NCBI RefSeq assembly: GCF_007678455.1 | Contig: NZ_VEEP01000006.1 | Span: 1 to 64,000, forward strand | DNA from: Cytobacillus oceanisediminis 2691 | Lineage (GTDB): Bacteria > Bacillota > Bacilli > Bacillales > Cytobacillaceae | Direction: 5' to 3' | DNA: 64,000 bases | In this document: positions 1,532-12,860 of the stretch, piece after piece | Layout: the number at the start of each line of letters is the position of its first letter | Numbering within the stretch: position 1 is the first letter of the stretch | Program-made: the position numbers and the translations under genes | The notes under the pieces: generated by a model | The model's database searches: none | What the model saw: only the letters and a program-made list of their open reading frames with translations | Told to the model about the DNA's origin: nothing

Positions 1532-2560
1532 TTAGGACCCCATGTATCTCGCATAATAGGTTCTAGCTTTTACCAGATCATTCGTTCCGTGGACAAGTAC
1601 ACGTCCATCCTGGAAGATGACCATGGTGATTTCATCATCAGGCATAAAACGTAACAGGAACGGGTTGCCTTTTACTTCCCCATTATTTTTCAACCTGCCT
1701 GCCAGCTTTTCAAGGTCCATTTTTGCCTTCTGCCGAGGATTGATCTGGACCGTGTTGCGCCCGCAGAGCGATGCATAGTTGATCTGCTGCTCTGATGAGC
1801 GATCGAGAAATTCATATTGTTGATGGACACATGCCGGGCATTCCGGGTTGCGCCCCTGGCTGACATCCATTTGCAAAAACGAGTTATGCCAGATATCCAT
1901 CTGTTCAAGATTGGGATTCGACTCCGCTCCGACAAGCAGCTTCAAAGCTTCGACCGCTTCGAACGAACCGATGATATCCGTGATCGGTGAAAGCACACCG
2001 ATGCTGTCGCAAGTATCCCCAAGTCCTGCGGGGACAGACGGGAAAAGACAGCGATAGCACGGAGTCTCACCTGGTTTTATGACAGCGAACATGCCCCTTG
2101 AGCTCACTGCCCCGCCGTAGACCCATGGAATTCCATGTTTCACAGCGACATCGTTTATGAGATACCGTGCCATGAAATTATCGGTCCCATCGACGATCAC
2201 ATCAAAACCAGCAAGCAGGTCCTCCGCGTTATCCAGCGTTAGGTCGGCAATAATTGGTTCCAATCTCACTTCGGAATTGATTTTCCTCAGTTTTTTTTCA
2301 GCAGCGATGACCTTCGGCAGGTTCTCGCGCGCATCTTCTTCATCATAGAGAGTCTGGCGCTGGAGATTGGACAGCTCGACCAGGTCACGGTCGATGAAGC
2401 GCACATGCCCCACACCCGAGCGAACCAGATGATTCGAGATCACTGCCCCCAGTGCCCCCATGCCGACGATGACTGCAGAACTAGCCAGCAGTTTCTTCTG
2501 TCCGTCACGGCCAATTTGCTTGAATAAAATTTGTCTAGAATAACGCTCCATTTCATTCAT
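1532..2560 (-). CDS. MoeB/ThiF/HesA-family adenylyltransferase (sulfur-carrier E1)
   Basis: 342 residues of the ubiquitin-E1-like family that adenylates the C-terminal Gly-Gly of MoaD or ThiS. Visible features are the nucleotide-binding GMGALG near residue 33, the DRDLVELSNLQRQ stretch near 60, the zinc pairs CYRC and CPAC, and the conserved Cys in DTCDSIGVLSP before DIIGS. About 85 residues follow the E1 core, longer than minimal MoeB; their role is unknown. The start ATG follows GAGGGG. It is divergent from the aldehyde oxidoreductase gene, and a MoaD-like carrier lies about 3 kb away, so it probably activates that carrier for pterin cofactor synthesis. ThiF or HesA activity cannot be excluded. 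Confidence 0.85.
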   Translation of the reverse strand: MNEMERYSRQILFKQIGRDGQKKLLASSAVIVGMGALGAVISNHLVRSGVGHVRFIDRDLVELSNLQRQTLYDEEDARENLPKVIAAEKKLRKINSEVRLEPIIADLTLDNAEDLLAGFDVIVDGTDNFMARYLINDVAVKHGIPWVYGGAVSSRGMFAVIKPGETPCYRCLFPSVPAGLGDTCDSIGVLSPITDIIGSFEAVEALKLLVGAESNPNLEQMDIWHNSFLQMDVSQGRNPECPACVHQQYEFLDRSSEQQINYASLCGRNTVQINPRQKAKMDLEKLAGRLKNNGEVKGNPFLLRFMPDDEITMVIFQDGRVLVHGTNDLVKARTYYARYMGS

Positions 2561-2628
2561 GGATATCCCCTCACTTCTATTTAGATTATATCTTTAAATA
2601 AAGCTTTTTTTTAGGGAAAATTTTCACT

Positions 2629-2659
2629 ATACTAAATATTAAGAGGGTTTACCCTCTTA
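2629..2659 (+). promoter_or_regulatory. Promoter and palindromic operator candidate for the aldehyde oxidoreductase gene
   Basis: A perfect inverted repeat TAAGAGGGTTTACCCTCTTA (9-bp arms, 2-bp centre) lies at 2640-2659, just after a plausible -10 TATACT at 2629-2634. It therefore covers the expected transcription start, about 44 bp ahead of the ATG. Its position suits a repressor site or a 5'-end hairpin. Which regulator binds is unknown; the LysR gene downstream is one candidate. Confidence 0.5.
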
Positions 2660-2702
2660 GGGACTTTTTACTATTAAAAGTGAAAGAGGTGGATTAGTTA
2701 AG

Positions 2703-4544
2703 ATGAATCTTGGGGGATTTAAAAACAAAGAAGTCGTAGTTGACTTAACCAATGGCACTGTCGGTTACCGTGGCATCAATGAAGAAGATGTAAGGAAGTA
2801 TATCGGCGGCCGCGGCCTTGGAGTCAAGTATGTACTGGACAACGGACCAGAAGTTGAGCCTCTATCAGAAGAAAACATTCTATGTATCATGACTGGCCCT
2901 GTAACAGGTTCTCGTTCTTCAATGAGCGGACGTCTTGCTGTCGTAACAAAGTCACCGCTTACCGGTACGGTTACTGACTCTCATATGGGCGGATGGACAG
3001 CTGCCCGTCTGAAGTGGTCTGGAATCGACAACGTGATTTTCAAAGGCAAGAGCGACAAACCGGTCTACCTGTATATCGAGGATGGCCAGGCAGAAATCCG
3101 CGACGCTTCTCAATTGTGGGGATTGAGCACGCGCGCGACTGTACAGGCTTTGAAAGATGCTCATGGCGAAGAAAACCTCAGCGTTATGACGATCGGCCAG
3201 GCTGGCGAAAACGGAGTGCGTTTTGCCGGTTTCATGAACGAGCATGACCGTGCGGCTGGACGCGGCGGTACTGGTGCGGTTGCAGGTTACAAAAAACTGA
3301 AGGCAATCGTGATCAAGGCAGCTCAAAAGGGCAACATGCCTGAGCCTGCTCAAAAAGATGACTACAATCAGGCTAACAAGAAAGCTGTTAAAGCGATTCT
3401 TGAAGGCGGCCTTACTGCTCCTAACAAAGGCGGCTTGTCAGTATACGGAACAAACGTCCTTACCAACTTGATCAATGAAGTGGGAGCGCTTCCAACACGA
3501 AACTCTCAATTGACACACTGGGATGAAGCAGAGAAGCATTCCGGCGAGTGGGTAAACGAGCACATTCTCGTTGCTAACAACACATGCCACGCTTGCCCGG
3601 TTGGCTGCAAGATCGAGGTTGAAGTCAAGGAAGGCAAATATAAGACTCGCGTAGAAAGCTTTGAGTTTGAATCTGCATGGGCGCTTGGAGCGAACAGCGG
3701 TTTGAGCGACTCTGAAGCGATCGCATACTTAATCGATATCTGTAATGAATATGGAATGGATACAATCGAGCTAGGCCACGCCATCTCTGTCACAATGGAA
3801 GCCTATGAAAAAGGCATCGTTGAAGAGAAGCTTGACTGGGGCGATGCTGACGGCATGATCGAGATTGCTCGCAAAATCGCGTTCCGTGAAGGCTTCGGCG
3901 GAATCCTTGCTGAAGGTCCTGCACGCGCGACTGCTGCATGGGGAGTTCCTGAACTGTCAATGTCCGTTAAAGGCCAGTCCATCCCAGCTTACGATCCGCG
4001 CGGAATCCAGGGAATCGGCCTTGGCTATGCGACTAGTAACCGTGGTGCCTGCCACCTTCGCGGCTACACAATCGCATCTGAAATCGCCGGTATTCCAGAG
4101 CCAACTGACCGTACAGTAGCAGAAGGAAAAGCTGAGCTTCTGAACGTATTCCAGAACCTGCTTTCATTCTCTGACTCTATGAATATCTGTAAGTTCTCTT
4201 CTTTCTCTGAAAACGCCGAGCACTACGCTGAGCAATACAGCACAATGACAGGCATCCCAATGACAGCGGATGATGTCATGCTTGCAGGGGAAAGAATCTA
4301 CAACCTTGAGCGTTATTACAATAACCTAGCCGGCTTCAACAAGCGTGAGGATGACTTCCTTCCAAAACGCTTTACTGAAGAAGGTGCTTCCGGCAACAGT
4401 GAAGGACTTGTCTCACGCATGGATATCATGCTGGAAGACTATTACAATGTCCGCGGCTGGAAGGATGGCGTCGTTACCGAAGAAAAACTTCGCGAACTGG
4501 GCATCATTGGCGAAGAAACAACTCCGGCTACAGAAGAAGTTTAA
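2703..4544 (+). CDS. Aldehyde:ferredoxin oxidoreductase (tungsten/molybdenum pterin enzyme)
   Basis: 613 residues, the usual length of AOR. The family oxidises aldehydes to carboxylic acids with ferredoxin as acceptor, using a tungsto- or molybdo-bispterin and one [4Fe-4S] cluster. The cluster ligands are C295, C298, C302 (CHACPVGC) and C496 (MNICKF), the same spacing as in archaeal AOR. The N-terminal AFOR_N domain has GGRGLGVKY near residue 36 and GPVTGSRSSMSGR near 65. The start ATG follows AGAGGTGG. The gene stands alone on its strand, with MoeB- and MoaD-like genes on either side that suit cofactor maturation. A cytosolic tungsten enzyme is unusual in a mostly aerobic lineage. The metal and substrate are not determined by sequence. 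Confidence 0.93.
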   Translation: MNLGGFKNKEVVVDLTNGTVGYRGINEEDVRKYIGGRGLGVKYVLDNGPEVEPLSEENILCIMTGPVTGSRSSMSGRLAVVTKSPLTGTVTDSHMGGWTAARLKWSGIDNVIFKGKSDKPVYLYIEDGQAEIRDASQLWGLSTRATVQALKDAHGEENLSVMTIGQAGENGVRFAGFMNEHDRAAGRGGTGAVAGYKKLKAIVIKAAQKGNMPEPAQKDDYNQANKKAVKAILEGGLTAPNKGGLSVYGTNVLTNLINEVGALPTRNSQLTHWDEAEKHSGEWVNEHILVANNTCHACPVGCKIEVEVKEGKYKTRVESFEFESAWALGANSGLSDSEAIAYLIDICNEYGMDTIELGHAISVTMEAYEKGIVEEKLDWGDADGMIEIARKIAFREGFGGILAEGPARATAAWGVPELSMSVKGQSIPAYDPRGIQGIGLGYATSNRGACHLRGYTIASEIAGIPEPTDRTVAEGKAELLNVFQNLLSFSDSMNICKFSSFSENAEHYAEQYSTMTGIPMTADDVMLAGERIYNLERYYNNLAGFNKREDDFLPKRFTEEGASGNSEGLVSRMDIMLEDYYNVRGWKDGVVTEEKLRELGIIGEETTPATEEV

Positions 4545-4556
4545 TAGTTTGAGAGA

Positions 4557-4587
4557 AACCAGGTGACTTTCTCGCCTGGTTTTTTGT
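4557..4587 (+). terminator. Terminator after the aldehyde oxidoreductase gene
   Basis: Stem AACCAGG/CCTGGTT with an 11-nt loop, followed by a T run, 12 bases after the stop codon. Confidence 0.85.
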
Positions 4588-4618
4588 TTAAGGGTGCAGA
4601 TATTGCGGATGAAGCAAC

Positions 4619-4740
4619 TTGGTCGAATTAATAGGAAATGTGGTCGAATTATTTTAAAATCCGCCAAAAAAACTTGAAATGTGATCGAATTATTTTGAAA
4701 TCCGCCAAATAAATCTGAAATGTGGTCGAATTAATTAAAA
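4619..4740. repeat. GGTCGAATTA intergenic repeat array (21/41-bp spacing)
   Basis: The motif (T)GGTCGAATTA recurs with the TCGAAT core at 4623, 4644, 4685 and 4726, i.e. steps of 21, 41 and 41 bp. The full 41-bp step also carries AAATCCGCCAAA. The same motif recurs near 51170-51260 and, inverted, near 59430-59530. No open frame is credible here. Together with the flanking terminators this accounts for the 337-base gene-free stretch. Confidence 0.75.
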
Positions 4741-4847
4741 GTGCCATCTTACAGGATGTATATTCGCTTCTTATTAGCGTAATCCACGATTACGATCCTC
4801 GATATCAGTCGGGAATATGAATTACATATAGATTTTTTGCAAAAATA

Positions 4848-4880
4848 AAAAGGCCCCGGCAAAAAGTTGCCGAAACCTTT
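4848..4880 (-). terminator. Terminator of the MoaD-like operon
   Basis: On the minus strand, AAGGTTTCGGC and GCCGGGGCCTT form an interrupted stem followed by TTTTTATTTTT, directly after the stop of the small partner gene at 4882. Confidence 0.75.
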
Positions 4881-4881
4881 G

Positions 4882-5154
4882 CTACCCGCCTACCCGGGTT
4901 GTTTTATAACGGTAATTTTTGATCAGGTGTTCGAGCTCATCCATGCTTTCCGCCGCAAAGCGGATATGAACAGCATTAACGATGAATGTTTTTGTAAAAG
5001 CAAGTTCATCCTCGCTAAAAATTTCCGCTCTCCATCCTTCCGCTTCATACACGTACGGGAAGGAATCGGTTACGAGTCGGCCGCCCAGTTCTTCAAAATA
5101 CATGCCGAGATGATCCCTGTTGATTCCGCGGAATTCTAGTATTCTATCTACCAT
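4882..5154 (-). CDS. Small MoaD-associated protein ending in Gly-Gly
   Basis: About 90 residues, translationally coupled to the MoaD-like gene. The MoaD stop (TGA) is one base from an ATG at 5152-5154; in-frame GTG and TTG codons overlapping MoaD are alternative starts. No signal peptide or membrane segment is seen. The C terminus is KTTRVGG, so it ends in Gly-Gly like the carrier upstream. From memory, some MoaD-related proteins carry an extra C-terminal domain of about this size (DUF1952 type); this could be that domain as a separate gene. A role in pterin cofactor synthesis or sulfur transfer is inferred from context only. Confidence 0.6.
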   Translation of the reverse strand: MVDRILEFRGINRDHLGMYFEELGGRLVTDSFPYVYEAEGWRAEIFSEDELAFTKTFIVNAVHIRFAAESMDELEHLIKNYRYKTTRVGG

Positions 5155-5155
5155 A

Positions 5156-5428
5156 TCAGCCACCGGCAACAGGAGGGAACAATGCGAACTGGTCGCTTTC
5201 TTTTACATTCGTTTCGAGTTCCTGGTCATGGACGATGTTACGGCCATTGATATAAACGTGTACAAATGGCTTTAGCGTCTTTTCTTCTGTGAAAATTTCT
5301 TCGTGCAAATCCGGGAACATTTCGCACATTTTATCAAGCACATCCATTACCCGTTCCCCATCAGGCTTCACTTCGACCGTCACGCCTCCGCAAATATCTC
5401 TGAGATTAGCAAATACTTTAACCTGCAT
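5156..5428 (-). CDS. MoaD/ThiS-family sulfur carrier
   Basis: 90 residues with a beta-grasp pattern (MQVKVFANLRDI at the N terminus) and the diagnostic FPPVAGG C terminus, which is adenylated by a MoeB-like E1 and converted to a thiocarboxylate. MoaD donates sulfur in molybdopterin (also tungstopterin) synthesis. The start ATG is preceded by AAAGGGG. It is the first gene of a two-gene minus-strand unit with the Gly-Gly partner. No moaE is in the window, so the standard synthase partner would have to be elsewhere. The location between an aldehyde oxidoreductase gene and a LysR regulator suggests a dedicated cofactor function. Confidence 0.85.
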   Translation of the reverse strand: MQVKVFANLRDICGGVTVEVKPDGERVMDVLDKMCEMFPDLHEEIFTEEKTLKPFVHVYINGRNIVHDQELETNVKESDQFALFPPVAGG

Positions 5429-5517
5429 CCAAAACGCCCCTTTCTCCTACCCCTAATAATAATGTGAAAATTATAAATTGTCATCCGCACTTTCTATTTA
5501 AAAGGGAATCGTTTATC

Positions 5518-6408
5518 TTACAAACTAGAATCCATGACTGCGTCGGTGAACTGCTTGATCAGCGGGCGATTTTCGGCATCCGATTGTGCCACAAGGTAAA
5601 ACTCCCTGTCGTACGGAGCAAAGCTATCAATGATGGCTATACGTCCTGTTTTCACAGCAGGCATTGCTGCGAGTCTGGAAACGAAGCTGATGCCGAGTCC
5701 GGCTTCCACGGCTGCGATCACGGATTCAGTGCTTCCGATCGAGACAGCTACGTTCAGATCATCAAGCGACAGACCATTTTCCACCAAGTAATGCTCCATC
5801 ATTTTCCGTGTTCCTGATCCTTCTTCACGGAGGACGAAATCATATTGCTGTATTTGGGGAAAATCCGGTGATTCTGCAAGGGTTAATGGGTGCTCCACAG
5901 GTGTGACCAAAACCAGTGAATCTGAGACAATCGGCTTGCTCGTCACCAGGCGTGAGTCGACTTTCATCCCAATAATGCCTGCGTCAATCTGATGATTCTG
6001 CAATTGATCGAGCACTTTCTTCGAATCGCCAATATCAATCTTTACATCCACCTTCGGAAACAGAATCCGAAATTTCTTGATCCAGCCTGGAAGCAGGTAT
6101 GTGCCCGGTATCGTGCTCGCACCAATGGTAAGAGTCCCTGTCAACGTACCGTGAAATTCCCCGAGTTCATCTTCGAGTGTCTTCCACCTGCTCTTAATGT
6201 CCTTTGCAGCACTGTACACCAGCATTCCTGCAGACGTCGGCCTGATTCCAGCCGCCCCCCTGTCGAGCAGTTCGAATCCAAGTTCATCTTCCAGACTTTT
6301 GATTTTCAGGCTAACCGATGGCTGGGAACTTTTAAGCGCAGCTGCAGCCTCTGAAAAACTGTTCTTCTCTACAACCATAATGAACGCATCAAGCTTTTTA
6401 AGATTCAT
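5518..6408 (-). CDS. LysR-family transcriptional regulator
   Basis: 296 residues, the usual LysR length. The N-terminal winged helix-turn-helix (MNLKKLDAFIMVVEKNSFSEAA, then SQPSVSLKIKSLEDELG) is followed by a periplasmic-binding-protein-like effector domain starting near residue 90 (LTIGASTIPGTYLLP). Its sequence resembles the CysL/YwfK subgroup. It is the neighbour of the MoaD-like unit and may regulate that unit or the aldehyde oxidoreductase gene; this is inference from position. Its upstream region is occupied by the 52-bp tandem array. Confidence 0.9.
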   Translation of the reverse strand: MNLKKLDAFIMVVEKNSFSEAAAALKSSQPSVSLKIKSLEDELGFELLDRGAAGIRPTSAGMLVYSAAKDIKSRWKTLEDELGEFHGTLTGTLTIGASTIPGTYLLPGWIKKFRILFPKVDVKIDIGDSKKVLDQLQNHQIDAGIIGMKVDSRLVTSKPIVSDSLVLVTPVEHPLTLAESPDFPQIQQYDFVLREEGSGTRKMMEHYLVENGLSLDDLNVAVSIGSTESVIAAVEAGLGISFVSRLAAMPAVKTGRIAIIDSFAPYDREFYLVAQSDAENRPLIKQFTDAVMDSSL

Positions 6409-7385: not shown

Positions 7386-7458
7386 TCAACATATAACATT
7401 CCGTTCCGAAATTCCTATACTCTCAGTGCCAAAACATTATATTAGGAGGAGAAAAAGG

Positions 7459-8790
7459 ATGGGAAGCTTAAAAGGTAAAGATACACTCACAATCGGTTTA
7501 ATGTTATTTGCATTATTTTTTGGAGCAGGGAATCTGATTTTCCCGCCATTTTTAGGGCAGGAAGCAGGAGCGAACTTCTGGCCGGCCATGCTTGGTTTTG
7601 TCGTGACCGGGGTTGGGCTGCCGTTGTTGACGGTCGTTGTCATTTCAATGGCAAAGGGCGGCGTAAAAGAAATCGGGTCAAGGGTCCATCCTGTTTTTGC
7701 AGTTGTTTTCAGCGCTGCAGTATACTTGTCGATTGGACCGTTTTTCGGGATTCCGCGAAGCGCCAATGTTGCTTTTGAAATGTCCGTCAAGCCATTCCTG
7801 GCAGAGGGCGGTTCGCATACGACTGTCCTCTTGCTTTTCACAGTTGCGTTTTTTGCACTTGTTTACTGGGTGACATTGAATCCATCAAAAATGGTTGAGC
7901 GGATTGGGAGCATTTTAACGCCTGTTTTGCTCGCTGCCATCGTTCTGCTGGTACTCGGCAGCTTTTTCAAACTGGACGGATCATTTGGAGCTGTCTCTGA
8001 AAAATACACCGCTGCACCATTTGCCACAGGTTTCCTTGAAGGGTACCTGACAATGGATACCATTGCGGCGCTGGCATTCGGCATCATTGTCGTAGGAGCT
8101 GTCCAGCAGAAAAAGGCGCTGGAACGCAAACAGATTGTAAGGGAAACATTAAAAGCAGGCATCATTGCCGGAATTGGCCTGGCTTTTGTCTATGTAACAG
8201 TCGGCCTGATGGGAGCAAAGATGGCTTCGGGAGGTCAATTCGAAAATGGCAGTGAGATTTTAACAGCTTCTGCGAAGTTGATGTTCGGTGTACCGGGCAT
8301 GCTGCTGTTAGGATTGATTGTGACTCTTGCCTGCTTTACGACTGCTGTTGGTCTTGTAGCGGCAACCAGCCAATTTTTCAACAAGATGATGCCACAGGTG
8401 CCTTATAAGGTGTTCGCCTTGTCTGTGACATTGGTCAGCTTGCTAATCGCAAACCTTGGCTTAAACCAGATCATTTCGATTTCAGTACCTGTTTTGATCG
8501 TTCTATATCCAATCACGATCGTTCTAGTCATCCTTTCTTTCCTTGAGCGCTTTTTCAAAGGAGCGCGAGGGGTCTATGTCGGAGCTGTTTTTGCCGCTGG
8601 AATGGTCAGTGTCATAGATGGATTGAAAACATTTGGCGTTGAATCAGATGCACTGATGGCTCTTCTTCAATCGCTTCCGCTTTATGCAGAAGGTCTGGGC
8701 TGGCTTCTGCCTGCTCTGGTCGGCGGCCTGGCTGGATGGATATTGGACAAGCTTCTTCCTTCCAAAGGTTTAAATCCCGCATCTGAGTAA
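7459..8790 (+). CDS. brnQ: Branched-chain amino acid transporter BrnQ
   Basis: 443 residues of the LIVCS (BrnQ) sodium-coupled carrier family, which imports leucine, isoleucine and valine. The N terminus KDTLTIGLMLFALFFGAGNLIFPP is the family signature. About twelve hydrophobic segments are visible along the length. I chose the ATG at 7459 because AGGAGGA lies 9 bases before it; the upstream in-frame ATG at 7426 has no ribosome site. A T-box leader controls it, so expression should rise when the cognate tRNA is uncharged. A terminator follows at 8827. Confidence 0.95.
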   Translation: MGSLKGKDTLTIGLMLFALFFGAGNLIFPPFLGQEAGANFWPAMLGFVVTGVGLPLLTVVVISMAKGGVKEIGSRVHPVFAVVFSAAVYLSIGPFFGIPRSANVAFEMSVKPFLAEGGSHTTVLLLFTVAFFALVYWVTLNPSKMVERIGSILTPVLLAAIVLLVLGSFFKLDGSFGAVSEKYTAAPFATGFLEGYLTMDTIAALAFGIIVVGAVQQKKALERKQIVRETLKAGIIAGIGLAFVYVTVGLMGAKMASGGQFENGSEILTASAKLMFGVPGMLLLGLIVTLACFTTAVGLVAATSQFFNKMMPQVPYKVFALSVTLVSLLIANLGLNQIISISVPVLIVLYPITIVLVILSFLERFFKGARGVYVGAVFAAGMVSVIDGLKTFGVESDALMALLQSLPLYAEGLGWLLPALVGGLAGWILDKLLPSKGLNPASE

Positions 8791-8826
8791 CCTGATGACT
8801 GGCAGGTAAATTGTATATGAAGGCAC

Positions 8827-8863
8827 AAAAGCTGTACAGATTTAACTCTGTACAGCTTTTTTT
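8827..8863. terminator. Terminator after brnQ
   Basis: Perfect stem AAAAGCTGTACAG/CTGTACAGCTTTT with a 7-nt loop, then further T residues. The A tract on the left lets it work in both directions. Confidence 0.9.
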
Positions 8864-9021
8864 ACGGCTTAGATTCGACTTTCTTCCTGACCGCAATATT
8901 CCCATGTTGATCCCGTCATGAATCTTCCCATCTCTATGAACTCCTGCATCATCCTGCCTTCGAACTGAATTGATTTTAGCAATGAAAAACCTGCTGCAAG
9001 TTTAGTCAGAGAGTAAAAAGG

Positions 9022-9027
9022 TATAAT
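9022..9027 (+). promoter_or_regulatory. Candidate -10 element of the FrnE-like gene
   Basis: TATAAT at 9022-9027, 43 bases before the start codon. The -35 region (around 8999-9006, TTTAGT) is a poor match. Confidence 0.45.
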
Positions 9028-9070
9028 CCAAACAAACCCTAACACTGTTAAGAATATGGAGGAGGCTGCT

Positions 9071-9703
9071 ATGACACTGAAAATCAAAATTTATTCAGAC
9101 TATGTTTGACCATTCTGTTTTTTGGCGGAGTTTCCGCTGAAGGAAGCCATCGATGGGAAGGATGTCGAACTTGAATGGATGCCTTTTGAATTAAGGCCCT
9201 ATCCGAACAAAACGTTAAAGCCTGAGGAACATTACCTGCAAAGCACCTGGAAGCAATCTGTTTATCCTATGGCTGAGCGGATGGGGGTGGAGATTGTCCT
9301 TCCCGATGTATCTCCCCAGCCGTACACACACCTTGCATTTGAGGGATATCAGTATGCGAAGGAGCATGGAAAAGGAAACGAGTATAATGACCATATGCTC
9401 AGGGCATTTTTCCAGAGGGGGTTAGATATTGGGAACCTTAAGGTTTTGACAATGCTTGCCGGTGAAGTTGGTCTCGATCAAGATGAATATCGTCACGCGC
9501 TCGAAACCCGTAAGTATAAAGAGGCTCATCAACAAGCACTGGATCATGCTTATAACGAGGTGGACATCACTGCTGTTCCGACGTTCATCGTTGGAGACAG
9601 GGTCGTTCCGGGGATGAGGTCGAAAGAAGCACTGGAACAAATTATCCTCTCAGAAATGGACGACCCCAATGAAGGAATGTCCTGTGGAATGGATAGGTGT
9701 TAA
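9071..9703 (+). CDS. DsbA/FrnE-family thiol oxidoreductase with in-frame UGA at the first catalytic Cys (candidate selenoprotein)
   Basis: Starts at ATG 9071 after GGAGGAGG. The reading is MTLKIKIYSDYV, then TGA (codon 13, 9107-9109), then PFCFLAEFPLKEA. Homologues have the active site CPFC here, so the UGA replaces exactly the N-terminal nucleophilic Cys while the second Cys (codon 16) is kept. The frame stays open for 197 codons after the UGA, with the cis-proline loop TAVPTF (Pro170) and a C-terminal Cys pair at 205 and 210. A 12-bp stem with a GUU loop follows 20 nt after the UGA, as expected for a bacterial SECIS. If Sec is inserted the product is 210 residues, a cytosolic two-domain thioredoxin fold. 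The alternative is a recent nonsense mutation, or a base error, in an otherwise intact gene. Confidence 0.8.
9118..9144 (+). promoter_or_regulatory. Candidate bacterial SECIS hairpin
   Basis: GGCGGA (9124-9129) pairs with UCCGCU (9133-9138) around the loop GUU. The stem continues with six U-rich pairs (9118-9123 with 9139-9144), giving 12 pairs counting G-U. The apical loop begins with G and lies 20 nt after the UGA. This matches the known requirements for SelB-dependent elements: short loop, G at loop position 1 or 2, 16-37 nt from UGA. Confidence 0.6.
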
Positions 9704-9706
9704 TGC

Positions 9707-9738
9707 AAAAAGAGGCAGCTGATCGGCTGCCTCTTTTC
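9707..9738. terminator. Bidirectional terminator
   Basis: AAAAGAGGCAGC/GCTGCCTCTTTT stem between the convergent FrnE-like and MMPL genes. Confidence 0.9.
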
Positions 9739-9740
9739 CA

Positions 9741-12700
9741 TTATGCTCTTTTAAACGGCCACCAGTTTGCTTCGCCAAAGTTCTTCACAAGAACCGGGAT
9801 GAACAGCGGCAGCATGATGAACGCGTACAGGAATAATCCCGCAAGGAGGATTGATGCGATTTGCAGCAACGACATCATTCCCGAAGGCATCATCGCGGCG
9901 AAAGTTCCGCCGAGAATGACGGCTGCCGAGATGATGACCGTTCCCATCTTTTTCATCGAAAGCAGCATTGCCTCTGAGATGGACAAATCCTTATATTCAT
10001 TGAAACGGTCCATCAGGAAGATACTGTAGTCGACACCAAGGGCAACCAGGATGACAAAGGCGAAAAACGGTACCGCCCAGCTGATCCCTGAGTATCCGAG
10101 AATATCGACATAGATCACTTCATTGATCGCCATTGAAGTATAATACGTTAATATCAATGAGCCGATAATGTAAATCGGCATGATGATGGAGCGGAACAAG
10201 AATACAAGGATGATACCAATGCCAAGCAGCATCAAAATCACTGTGCGGGTATAATCCTGGCCAGACATCGTGTCGAGATCCGCATTCGTGCTTGTTATCC
10301 CGCCGACGGCTACATCTGCATTTTCAAGCTTCGTCCCTTTCGTTGCACGCTCAACGGCTTCCTTAAGTTCAGGAATCTGTGCCATCGCTTTGTTTGAGTA
10401 AGGATTTGCTTCAAAAATGACATCCATCGTCATGACTTTTCGGTCTTTTGAAAAATAGACATCAAATACCTGGGCGAAGTCCTCACTTTCAAGCACATCC
10501 TCAGGCAGGTAAAAACCATTGGAATCAGTTTTGGCCAGGCCGTTCAGATATTCCTGAGCGGAACCAAGTCCTTCAGAAACCTGATTCAGCCCATCAGTGC
10601 TCTGACTGAGTCCGTCCGTGAGCTGACCTAACTGAGTACCCAATCCGCCAAAACCAGCCAGAAGCTGCTGTTGGCCCGCATTGATTCCAGTCAAGCCATT
10701 TGTCAGCTTAGGGAAATTATCGACGATTTTCCCCTGTCCGTCAGCAAGCTGATTCAATCCTGCCTGCTGCTGTTCGATGCCGTCGATCAACTGTTGGAGT
10801 CCCGGGCCGAAATTTGCTTGTTGTGCCAAGGCTCCGGCAAAGGCTTCATTTGCTTTTGCCATGCCGCCTGTAAGCTGCGGCAGTACCTCATTAAGTTGAT
10901 CCAGACCTGCTGAAGCTTTTGCCAGTTCAGTCTGCATGTATTGCAGCTGTCCTTTAATTTGATGATAGTTTTGGTCTGCTTTCAATGTCTGGTCTCTATT
11001 TTCCAAATAGCCGAATAGCTGGCCATTTGCTTCTGATATTCCGCCAGACAGTTTTGCAATTCCGCCCCCGGCCTCTGTATATCCCGCCTCAAGCTGTGCC
11101 AGGCCAGCCTGCATCTCCACATACCTGGATTGCAGCTGTTTATAGCCGGCGAGCAATTCTTCAGCCCCGGACTTTGCTTCTGTTAATCCTGCCTGAATCT
11201 GATCAGACCCCGCAGAACCCTTGCGAATGCCATCCTCAATTTTGCCAAGGTTGGTCTGGATTTCGCCAAGACCTGACTTAATTGCAGTTGTTCCATTGAT
11301 CAATTCGTTTATGCCGTCAGCAGCCCCTTCCAATTCGGGTGCTGACTTTGACAATTCAGTTTCAGCCTCATTGAGGCCATCGCTGATTTTATCCAGGCCT
11401 TCCTTTCCTTCACCCAGTCCTGAACCGAGTGTTTCGGCCTGTTTGGAGACGAAGAAGTCTTCGATTGGCTCTCCTGTTGGCCTTGTGACCGAACGAACTG
11501 TATCGACCATGTCGACTTTTTTCAGCTCGGTGCTGATTTTTTCAGCGAGTTCAATGTATTCAGCCGAGTCCATTCTTTCGTCATTTTTCAAGATGATTTG
11601 TGTTGGCATCGATTCGCCTGGGCCGAAACTGCCGGCAATCGCATTAAACGCCTTAATCGAGTTTACATCTCCGCTGATTTCATCCAGTGAGTTGTAACTC
11701 AGATCCCCATCATAAGCCACCAAAAACGGCACACATACTGCAGCAACAATCAGCAGGCTCAGGAATGGGCGTGCCAGTGAGAATCTTCCGACAGTGCCCC
11801 ATAACTTGCTTTCACCATGCTCTGCGCTTTGTTTTGAAGGCCAGAATATCTTTTGGCCTAATAACGCCATGAAAAACGGGACAATAGTGAATAATCCGAC
11901 CAAAAGCATGGCGACTCCGATTGCTACGGCAGCCGCGGATTGATATAAAATGAATTGTGAGAAGCCAATGGCGGCAAAGCCGATCATAACTGCTATCCCG
12001 CTAAAAAATACTGTGCGCCCTGCATTTTTATAGGTAGCGACAATCGCAGCAGGGACACTTTCTTGATGCGTGAGCTCTTCCTTAAAACGGCTGAGCAGCA
12101 AAATACAGTAGTCCGTTCCAATCCCGAACAATACGGCCACAAGGAAAATCTGCGTATAGTTTGAGAGCGGAAAATCAAATTGGTCAACTAACACCGATAC
12201 AATCGACTGTGAAACCAGGTATGCCATACCGACTGTAAGCAATGGAATGACCGGAGCGATGACGGACCTGAATACAAGGAGAAGGACGACAAGAATAAAG
12301 ACGACCGTAATTCCTTCCGTCTTTTTCAATCCTTCTTCCGAACTGGTCATTAAATCTTCGTTGATCAGCCACTGGCTCGTATAGTAGTGGTCGACGTCAA
12401 CATCCTCAATTGTGTCATAGAGCAGCTTCCTTACTTCAGCCGGTTCGCGGTCATTCCAGCTGACCGTTACCGAGGACAGGATTGACTTTCCATCTTCAGA
12501 GACAAGCTGTTCTTTCAGGCTTTCCTCATTGAAGTGTGTCAAGATATCCGTGATCCCGATTTCCTCGCGATTCTTTTCAAGTTCACGGATTGCGTTTTCC
12601 GCTTCCTTGATTTCTGCTGCTGTCAATTTTTTCTCGCTGTGGAAGACAAGTGCGACCTGTGTCTCATCGCCTCCGCCCTCCTGCTCCCTGACCTCATCCA

Positions 12701-12860
12701 TAATTTTGCCAGCGAGTGTCGAGGAGTATTCGTCAGGCACGGTGATCTGCCCTTTTTCCCGGACAAGTTCTGCCATATTCGGTGCAGCCATGAACAGACC
12801 TGCAGCCACCAGAATCCATGCAATAATGACTAACCATTTCTGCTTGATAATGAAGTTCAC
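9741..12860 (-). CDS. MMPL/RND-type exporter
   Basis: 1039 residues, an RND-superfamily transporter with two MMPL halves. The N-terminal half has one membrane segment, a soluble domain, then a block of about five segments (near residues 180-360, including GIGTDYCILLLSRFKEE). The second half mirrors it (GVDYSIFLMDRFNEYK near 945). Between them, residues about 470-790 form a long Gly/Leu/Gln-rich coiled-coil-like stretch with many short repeats, typical of Gram-positive YhgE/YdgH-like exporters. The start is GTG after GGGTGG, two bases after the stop of the MarR gene, so the two are co-transcribed. It probably exports lipids or amphiphilic toxins; the substrate is unknown. Confidence 0.9.
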   Translation of the reverse strand: MNFIIKQKWLVIIAWILVAAGLFMAAPNMAELVREKGQITVPDEYSSTLAGKIMDEVREQEGGGDETQVALVFHSEKKLTAAEIKEAENAIRELEKNREEIGITDILTHFNEESLKEQLVSEDGKSILSSVTVSWNDREPAEVRKLLYDTIEDVDVDHYYTSQWLINEDLMTSSEEGLKKTEGITVVFILVVLLLVFRSVIAPVIPLLTVGMAYLVSQSIVSVLVDQFDFPLSNYTQIFLVAVLFGIGTDYCILLLSRFKEELTHQESVPAAIVATYKNAGRTVFFSGIAVMIGFAAIGFSQFILYQSAAAVAIGVAMLLVGLFTIVPFFMALLGQKIFWPSKQSAEHGESKLWGTVGRFSLARPFLSLLIVAAVCVPFLVAYDGDLSYNSLDEISGDVNSIKAFNAIAGSFGPGESMPTQIILKNDERMDSAEYIELAEKISTELKKVDMVDTVRSVTRPTGEPIEDFFVSKQAETLGSGLGEGKEGLDKISDGLNEAETELSKSAPELEGAADGINELINGTTAIKSGLGEIQTNLGKIEDGIRKGSAGSDQIQAGLTEAKSGAEELLAGYKQLQSRYVEMQAGLAQLEAGYTEAGGGIAKLSGGISEANGQLFGYLENRDQTLKADQNYHQIKGQLQYMQTELAKASAGLDQLNEVLPQLTGGMAKANEAFAGALAQQANFGPGLQQLIDGIEQQQAGLNQLADGQGKIVDNFPKLTNGLTGINAGQQQLLAGFGGLGTQLGQLTDGLSQSTDGLNQVSEGLGSAQEYLNGLAKTDSNGFYLPEDVLESEDFAQVFDVYFSKDRKVMTMDVIFEANPYSNKAMAQIPELKEAVERATKGTKLENADVAVGGITSTNADLDTMSGQDYTRTVILMLLGIGIILVFLFRSIIMPIYIIGSLILTYYTSMAINEVIYVDILGYSGISWAVPFFAFVILVALGVDYSIFLMDRFNEYKDLSISEAMLLSMKKMGTVIISAAVILGGTFAAMMPSGMMSLLQIASILLAGLFLYAFIMLPLFIPVLVKNFGEANWWPFKRA

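Follow-up and report, generated by a model that had tools for sequence, protein, structure and literature searches.

A probable FrnE-branch selenoprotein of the DsbA family in Cytobacillus oceanisediminis 2691, with selenocysteine predicted at an in-frame UGA codon

Analysis of a 64 000-nucleotide stretch of contig NZ_VEEP01000006.1 from C. oceanisediminis 2691 (the window) indicates that the gene at 9071–9703 very probably encodes a DsbA-family selenoprotein of the FrnE branch, in which selenocysteine (Sec) is inserted at the in-frame UGA of codon 13 by means of a downstream hairpin. The codon, the hairpin, the decoding machinery and the protein family are each established by comparison of sequences. 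The preliminary description of this DNA had put the gene forward as a candidate selenoprotein, a proposal that comparative genomics supports through the presence of the machinery, the mixture of TGA and Cys codons among relatives and the hairpin that follows the UGA.

Reading frame, product and flanking sequence

The frame runs on the + strand from ATG 9071 to the TAA at 9701–9703 and is interrupted by a single internal stop, the TGA at 9107–9109 (codon 13), in the peptide context SDYV-*-PFC, where the family has the first cysteine of CPFC. The earlier reading of this codon as a UGA standing for the first active-site Cys of a DsbA/FrnE-type frame is therefore borne out, and Cys16, Pro170 and the Cys205/Cys210 pair also lie at the positions given for them, in a frame that is otherwise intact. 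The N-terminal stretch predicted for the full-length product includes MTLKIKIYSDYV. The features of the gene are as follows.

9000–9023, + strand: possible sigma-B-like promoter, GTTTA-N14-GGTA, weakly indicated by a motif count and by boxes upstream in genus members
9058–9065, + strand: ribosome-binding site GGAGGAGG upstream of ATG 9071, read from the sequence
9071–9703, + strand: probable selenoprotein gene for a DsbA/FrnE-type thioredoxin-fold oxidoreductase, 210 residues with UGA read as Sec, matching PF01323
9107–9109, + strand: in-frame UGA, codon 13, with Sec predicted to replace the nucleophilic Cys of CPFC (giving U-P-F-C), from the sequence and a 100-gene comparison
9116–9118, + strand: resolving Cys16 of UPFC, invariant in alignment A3 (61 rows)
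9578–9580, + strand: Pro170, presumably the cis-Pro of the thioredoxin fold, likewise invariant in alignment A3
9683–9700, + strand: C-terminal Cys205-x4-Cys210 tail, read from the sequence, resembling the CXXXXC of Deinococcus radiodurans FrnE
9708–9737, + strand: inverted repeat 3' of the gene, seen by eye, which may be a terminator common to the gene and the convergent ORF

A search with the read-through product gives a match to PF01323 (DSBA) of 99.6 bits (gathering score 25.6, E 2.6e-28), and an NCBIfam search produced only matches far below the cut-offs. The nearest solved structure is D. radiodurans FrnE both by sequence (E 3.3e-18) and by fold (TM-score by query length 0.80–0.82, r.m.s.d. 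5.0–7.0), which places the protein in the FrnE subfamily (cd03024); HCCA isomerases and GST kappa come lower in the ranking of fold matches. The AlphaFold model has a pLDDT of 90.4, with values under 50 at residues 201–210, the tail that contains the CX4C pair. Cys205 and Cys210 supply the C-terminal CXXXXC that many, not all, members of the FrnE subfamily possess.

In the mechanical ORF list the gene appears only as a shorter ORF that lacks the active site, and such genes are therefore easily missed. Searching the whole window for UxxC/CxxU-type frames gave seven matches, of which only the gene at 9071–9703 has, by eye, the look of a conserved protein. Upstream lies a branched-chain amino-acid transporter gene (7426–8790, PF05525) and downstream a long convergent ORF (9741–12860) that has the look of an MMPL-type transporter by eye; inverted repeats, also seen by eye, flank the gene on both sides. 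Within 8780–9780 a terminator scan returned no terminators and a promoter scan returned two promoter-like sites, both on the − strand, and an Rfam search of 8500–10000 gave one match, far below the gathering score. The motif GTTTA-N14-GGTA, which resembles the sigma-B consensus, occurs twice in the window against 0.67 expected, and at least two copies are found in 15 of 100 shuffles. Boxes resembling it were seen by eye upstream of the gene in genus members, and the box hints, weakly, at stress control. Elsewhere in the window, the interval 1532–6408 contains an aldehyde ferredoxin oxidoreductase (AFOR) and a ThiF-family protein (profile search) together with MoaD/MoaE-like and LysR-type ORFs (by eye), and has the appearance of a gene cluster for a tungsten or molybdenum enzyme.

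Codon 13 and the downstream hairpin among relatives

Within the genus the gene is present in ten of 21 genomes (E 1e-20 or better), including the window's own and one other genome of the same species, and all ten carry exactly one TGA at 76–100% protein identity. Since the same single TGA recurs in every holder, it is neither a chance event nor the fresh nonsense mutation that the preliminary description had kept as its alternative. At the family level, 37 of 193 genomes yield 38 matches at E 1e-30 or better, comprising 22 TGA forms, 15 Cys forms and one match (G047) without the 5' part and the active site. This last copy (L165) and a Cys form with an internal TAA (L166, in G049) appear to be decaying. 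A scan of named genomes, in which the best 80 of 289 relatives were kept, gave 28 TGA and 52 Cys forms, a proportion that is no population estimate because of this selection and because one of the two peptide patterns used contains Cys13. Mesobacillus selenatarsenatis SF-1 is among the named genomes of the Sec/Cys set.

The 111 loci collected (L026–L136, the window's own gene being L026) reduce to 100 distinct genes when identical ones are merged; eight further family matches that were fetched later stand outside the counts of 100. Codon 13 in the 100 genes is TGA in 37, TGT in 35 and TGC in 28, and is no other codon in any of them, so that the TGA/Cys mixture that the preliminary description had looked for at this position is found. 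No stop other than codon 13 precedes the gene end in the 100 distinct genes or the 111 loci, and the further internal stops that had been named as evidence against a selenoprotein are thus absent from the TGA genes. Three of the later-fetched family members (L159, L162 and L163) have TGA and the same hairpin core as the 37. One record among the loci, L057, is titled Chryseobacterium sp. ISL-80 and has the coordinates of genus member G012; the title is probably wrong.

Two hairpins, one nested in the other, can be drawn directly after the UGA.

9124–9138, + strand: SECIS-like apical hairpin GGCGGA-GUU-UCCGCU, the conserved core, with the first loop base G at 9130
9118–9144, + strand: longer 12-bp hairpin predicted in the window sequence, its lower six pairs unconserved in relatives

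Fourteen nucleotides separate the UGA from the first base of the apical hairpin. The core GCGGAGNNNCCGYU, 15 nt after the UGA, is found in 37/37 TGA genes against 2/63 Cys genes; most TGA rows read GCGGA-GNN-UCCGC, and the first loop base G is invariant. This conservation extends to synonymous sites. Codon 19 is GCG in all 37 TGA genes and in 16 of the 51 Cys genes with the same residue, codon 20 is GAG in 37/37 against 13/58, and codon 22 is CCG in 37/37 against 26/53, where the remainder of the TGA genes uses GCG for 142 of 554 Ala, GAG for 343 of 753 Glu and CCG for 144 of 392 Pro codons. Among 87 conserved columns the only invariant codons of the TGA genes are 19, 20 and 22, together with codon 13, which defines the group; among 89 conserved columns of the Cys genes there are none.

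The apical six pairs form in 213 of the 216 cells and the lower six in 136, the latter no better than in slid controls (up to 177 of 216, for a slide of 2). Covariation gives the hairpin no support: 223 of 500 shuffles attain its score, because the apical pairs hardly vary. The predicted folding energy is −12.3 kcal/mol (z −1.87, with 8 of 200 shuffles as low) and is only moderately low overall, with z from −0.98 to −1.87 depending on the stretch taken. The evidence for the hairpin is conserved sequence at synonymous sites rather than covariation. The encoded protein differs at the same place: residue 21, whose codon lies within the hairpin, is one of F, A, V and G in 37/37 TGA genes, whereas the 63 Cys genes have K (22), Q (16), G (10), E (5), V (5), N (2), A (2) or H (1), 46 of them having one of K, Q, E, N and H.

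Selenocysteine machinery, alternative readings and exchange with cysteine

The preliminary description had suggested a search of the genome for selA, selB, selD and a tRNA-Sec gene, and all four are present in the window's assembly (4.9 Mb, 477 contigs). Profile searches give selA at 568.4, selB at 361.7 and selD at 397.3 bits, each over its cut-off, and two tRNA-Sec genes have the anticodon TCA; these (L013 and L014, on G000 C332) lie ~10.6 kb apart and differ by a single base. The selD gene has an in-frame UGA of its own, in KAGUGCK, and SelD is itself often a selenoprotein according to the selenoproteome lists among PMC13188914, PMC9312934, PMC2398784, PMC1794560 and PMC5029168. On this gene content the genome can be expected to decode UGA as Sec. 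The preliminary description called selenoproteins uncommon in Bacillaceae, which is at odds with this clade: all 21 genus genomes and 172 of the 193 family genomes have selA.

A second, close DsbA paralogue in this genome (L001:1411–2103, minus strand, on G000 C221) resembles the window gene in having UGA at the first Cys of CPFC, so as to read UPFC, and a hairpin downstream, and differs from it in belonging to another subgroup and in the sequence of that hairpin (GCGUC-UGGAU-GACGC, z −1.51). Relatives of this paralogue occur in 21/21 genus genomes, compared with 10/21 for the window gene. They have UGA in 20 of the 21, including G001, where the gene is split in two and its frame disrupted, whereas G011, with a match of only 46% identity, has Cys.

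Three readings in which the UGA does not encode Sec can be weighed against these observations. The gene could be a recent pseudogene of a Cys enzyme, produced by a nonsense mutation or a sequencing error, as TGA is one base from TGT and TGC and the change is confined to a single codon. This is highly improbable given that the same TGA recurs in all genus holders and is shared by 37 distinct genes whose records carry the titles Bacillota, Planctomycetota and Acidobacteria, that the TGA genes have no other internal stop and that synonymous sites downstream of codon 13 are constrained. Translation of the UGA as something other than Sec, either as Trp through a changed code or by near-cognate read-through, merits equally little credence: read-through of UGA would by itself leave the inserted residue unnamed, but codon 13 is otherwise only Cys, the complete machinery with a UCA tRNA-Sec is at hand and it is the TGA form that the hairpin core accompanies. 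Initiation at the internal TTG 9122, which would give a 193-residue protein without the active site, is the most improbable of the three. The corresponding ORF is the output of the mechanical ORF list, but residues 8–16, upstream of this start, vary little or not at all across an alignment of 61 Sec and Cys rows (drawn from the 100 distinct genes), 34/37 TGA genes have a purine-rich ribosome site ahead of the upstream ATG and the short product would have no catalytic motif. On these grounds the pseudogene, the changed code and the internal start were rejected.

For the named loci, selA accompanies 28/28 TGA forms against 16/52 Cys forms (5/22 + 11/30), with a Fisher p of 2e-10 that is only a guide because the rows and genomes are related and not independent; one of the 16 Cys-locus genomes with selA, that of Peribacillus glennii, also carries a TGA copy. 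In P. glennii the Cys and Sec forms (L073 and L131) lie on one contig, ~43 kb apart. Within the family selA is present in all 22 TGA genomes and also in 13 of 14 genomes that have only the Cys form, a comparison that says little because selA is nearly universal there. The two Cys genes that keep the hairpin core are from Paenibacillus naphthalenovorans and Paenibacillus sp. CC-CFT747.

L086:3001–3648: core-keeping Cys gene of P. naphthalenovorans
L088:3001–3651: core-keeping Cys gene of Paenibacillus sp. CC-CFT747

No selA was found in the genomes of L086 and L088. Retention of the core in the absence of selA is as expected after a change from Sec to Cys, and both genes are likely to be fossils of such a change; remnant SECIS structures in Cys homologues have been described (PMC1794560).

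On a protein tree calculated with residue 13 masked, the Sec/Cys label changes seven times, compared with ~30 for shuffled labels, and at least three of the seven changes are forced by well supported branches. Five Planctomycetota genes and a pair from Planctomycetaceae and Acidobacteria MAGs form one supported group among the Bacillota, which suggests gene transfer, on a tree that is unrooted, with weak surrounding nodes and a long branch for L103, and with MAG misbinning possible for single cases. The loci L103, L105, L106, L110, L111, L116 and L119 are TGA forms with the same SECIS core from Planctomycetota and Acidobacteria MAGs.

Proposed catalytic role and relation to known proteins

D. 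radiodurans FrnE (DR_0659; PDB entries 5cnw, 5co3, 5coh, 5xwh and 5cp1) has the same fold as the window protein, with the active site placed alike and a CX4C tail at the C-terminus, at about 28% identity in the structural alignment, and differs in having Cys in its CXXC motif (CPWC in the alignment), where the window gene would have Sec as the nucleophile. A role as a cytoplasmic disulfide reductase was proposed by the FrnE authors; the mutant is reported to be sensitive to cadmium and diamide, and isomerase activity was shown as well. In the crystals the C-terminal CXXXXC of one molecule occupies the active site of a second, and a part in regenerating that site has been suggested for it (PMC8945050). 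The Listeria protein Lmo1059, set beside the window gene by its description, is likewise a DsbA-family protein with a CPFC motif, has Cys whereas the window gene is predicted to have Sec, and has been linked to oxidative stress tolerance (PMC10715225).

In the proposed mechanism, the hairpin just downstream of UGA codon 13 would recruit SelB with Sec-tRNA(UCA), and Sec would be inserted as the nucleophile of a U-P-F-C motif. Sec13 would then attack substrate disulfides, with Cys16 as the resolving residue, and the C-terminal CX4C tail may help to regenerate an active site, possibly in a second molecule, along the lines suggested for D. radiodurans FrnE. By analogy with FrnE, the enzyme would be a cytoplasmic disulfide reductase with Sec13 as its nucleophile that may act in thiol or metal stress; no signal peptide is obvious by eye. 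The tail step is uncertain because the pLDDT of the tail is under 50 and 18/37 TGA genes have no CX4C. The tail is present in 19/37 TGA genes and 27/63 Cys genes and is therefore dispensable for the use of Sec in general.

The protein could also be a selenoprotein whose chief function is that of a disulfide isomerase, an HCCA-isomerase-like, GST-kappa-like or metal-binding protein rather than a disulfide reductase, as might be argued from the lower-ranked fold matches to HCCA isomerases and GST kappa and from the isomerase activity of D. radiodurans FrnE (PMC8945050). Redox work is suggested instead by the UPFC motif and by FrnE being the closest relative, and a chiefly non-reductase function is considered unlikely. 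A broader scenario is also doubtful and is offered tentatively: the protein might be a cytoplasmic, stress-inducible Sec-FrnE whose Sec13, Cys16 and C-terminal CX4C pair make up a selenosulfide/disulfide relay fed by thioredoxin reductase, and its gene might have spread among Bacillota, Planctomycetota and Acidobacteriota along with an almost unchanging SECIS core that also dictates protein sequence.

DsbA-like selenoproteins of the PF01323/UxxC type are already catalogued (PMC13188914, PMC9312934 and PMC2398784, the last of which lists DsbA 1 and DsbA 2) and also appear in PMC1794560 and PMC5029168 (41 organisms, 45 proteins). They have the same Pfam domain as the window gene, Sec as the first residue of UxxC and Cys homologues. 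Because such proteins are catalogued, the novelty assigned to the gene in the preliminary description was too high. Table 2 of PMC1794560 gives three selenoproteins of three families for Bacillales, in a passage that is silent on which these are, and the word FrnE is absent from the main texts of PMC13188914, PMC9312934, PMC2398784, PMC1794560 and PMC5029168. Among the open-access papers searched, none was found on selenocysteine in Mesobacillus or on a 'DsbA family oxidoreductase' with selenocysteine, and on selenoproteins in connection with both FrnE and DsbA there was one paper, on animal genes; other searches led mainly back to the selenoproteome papers named above.

DsbA-like UxxC selenoproteins are thus a known group, of which the window gene is, on the comparisons made here, a strongly supported further member. 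Its hairpin looks like a case of an RNA element that constrains the protein in which it is embedded, and the occurrence of Sec and Cys forms together with probable fossils lets the exchange of Sec and Cys be studied in Bacillaceae.
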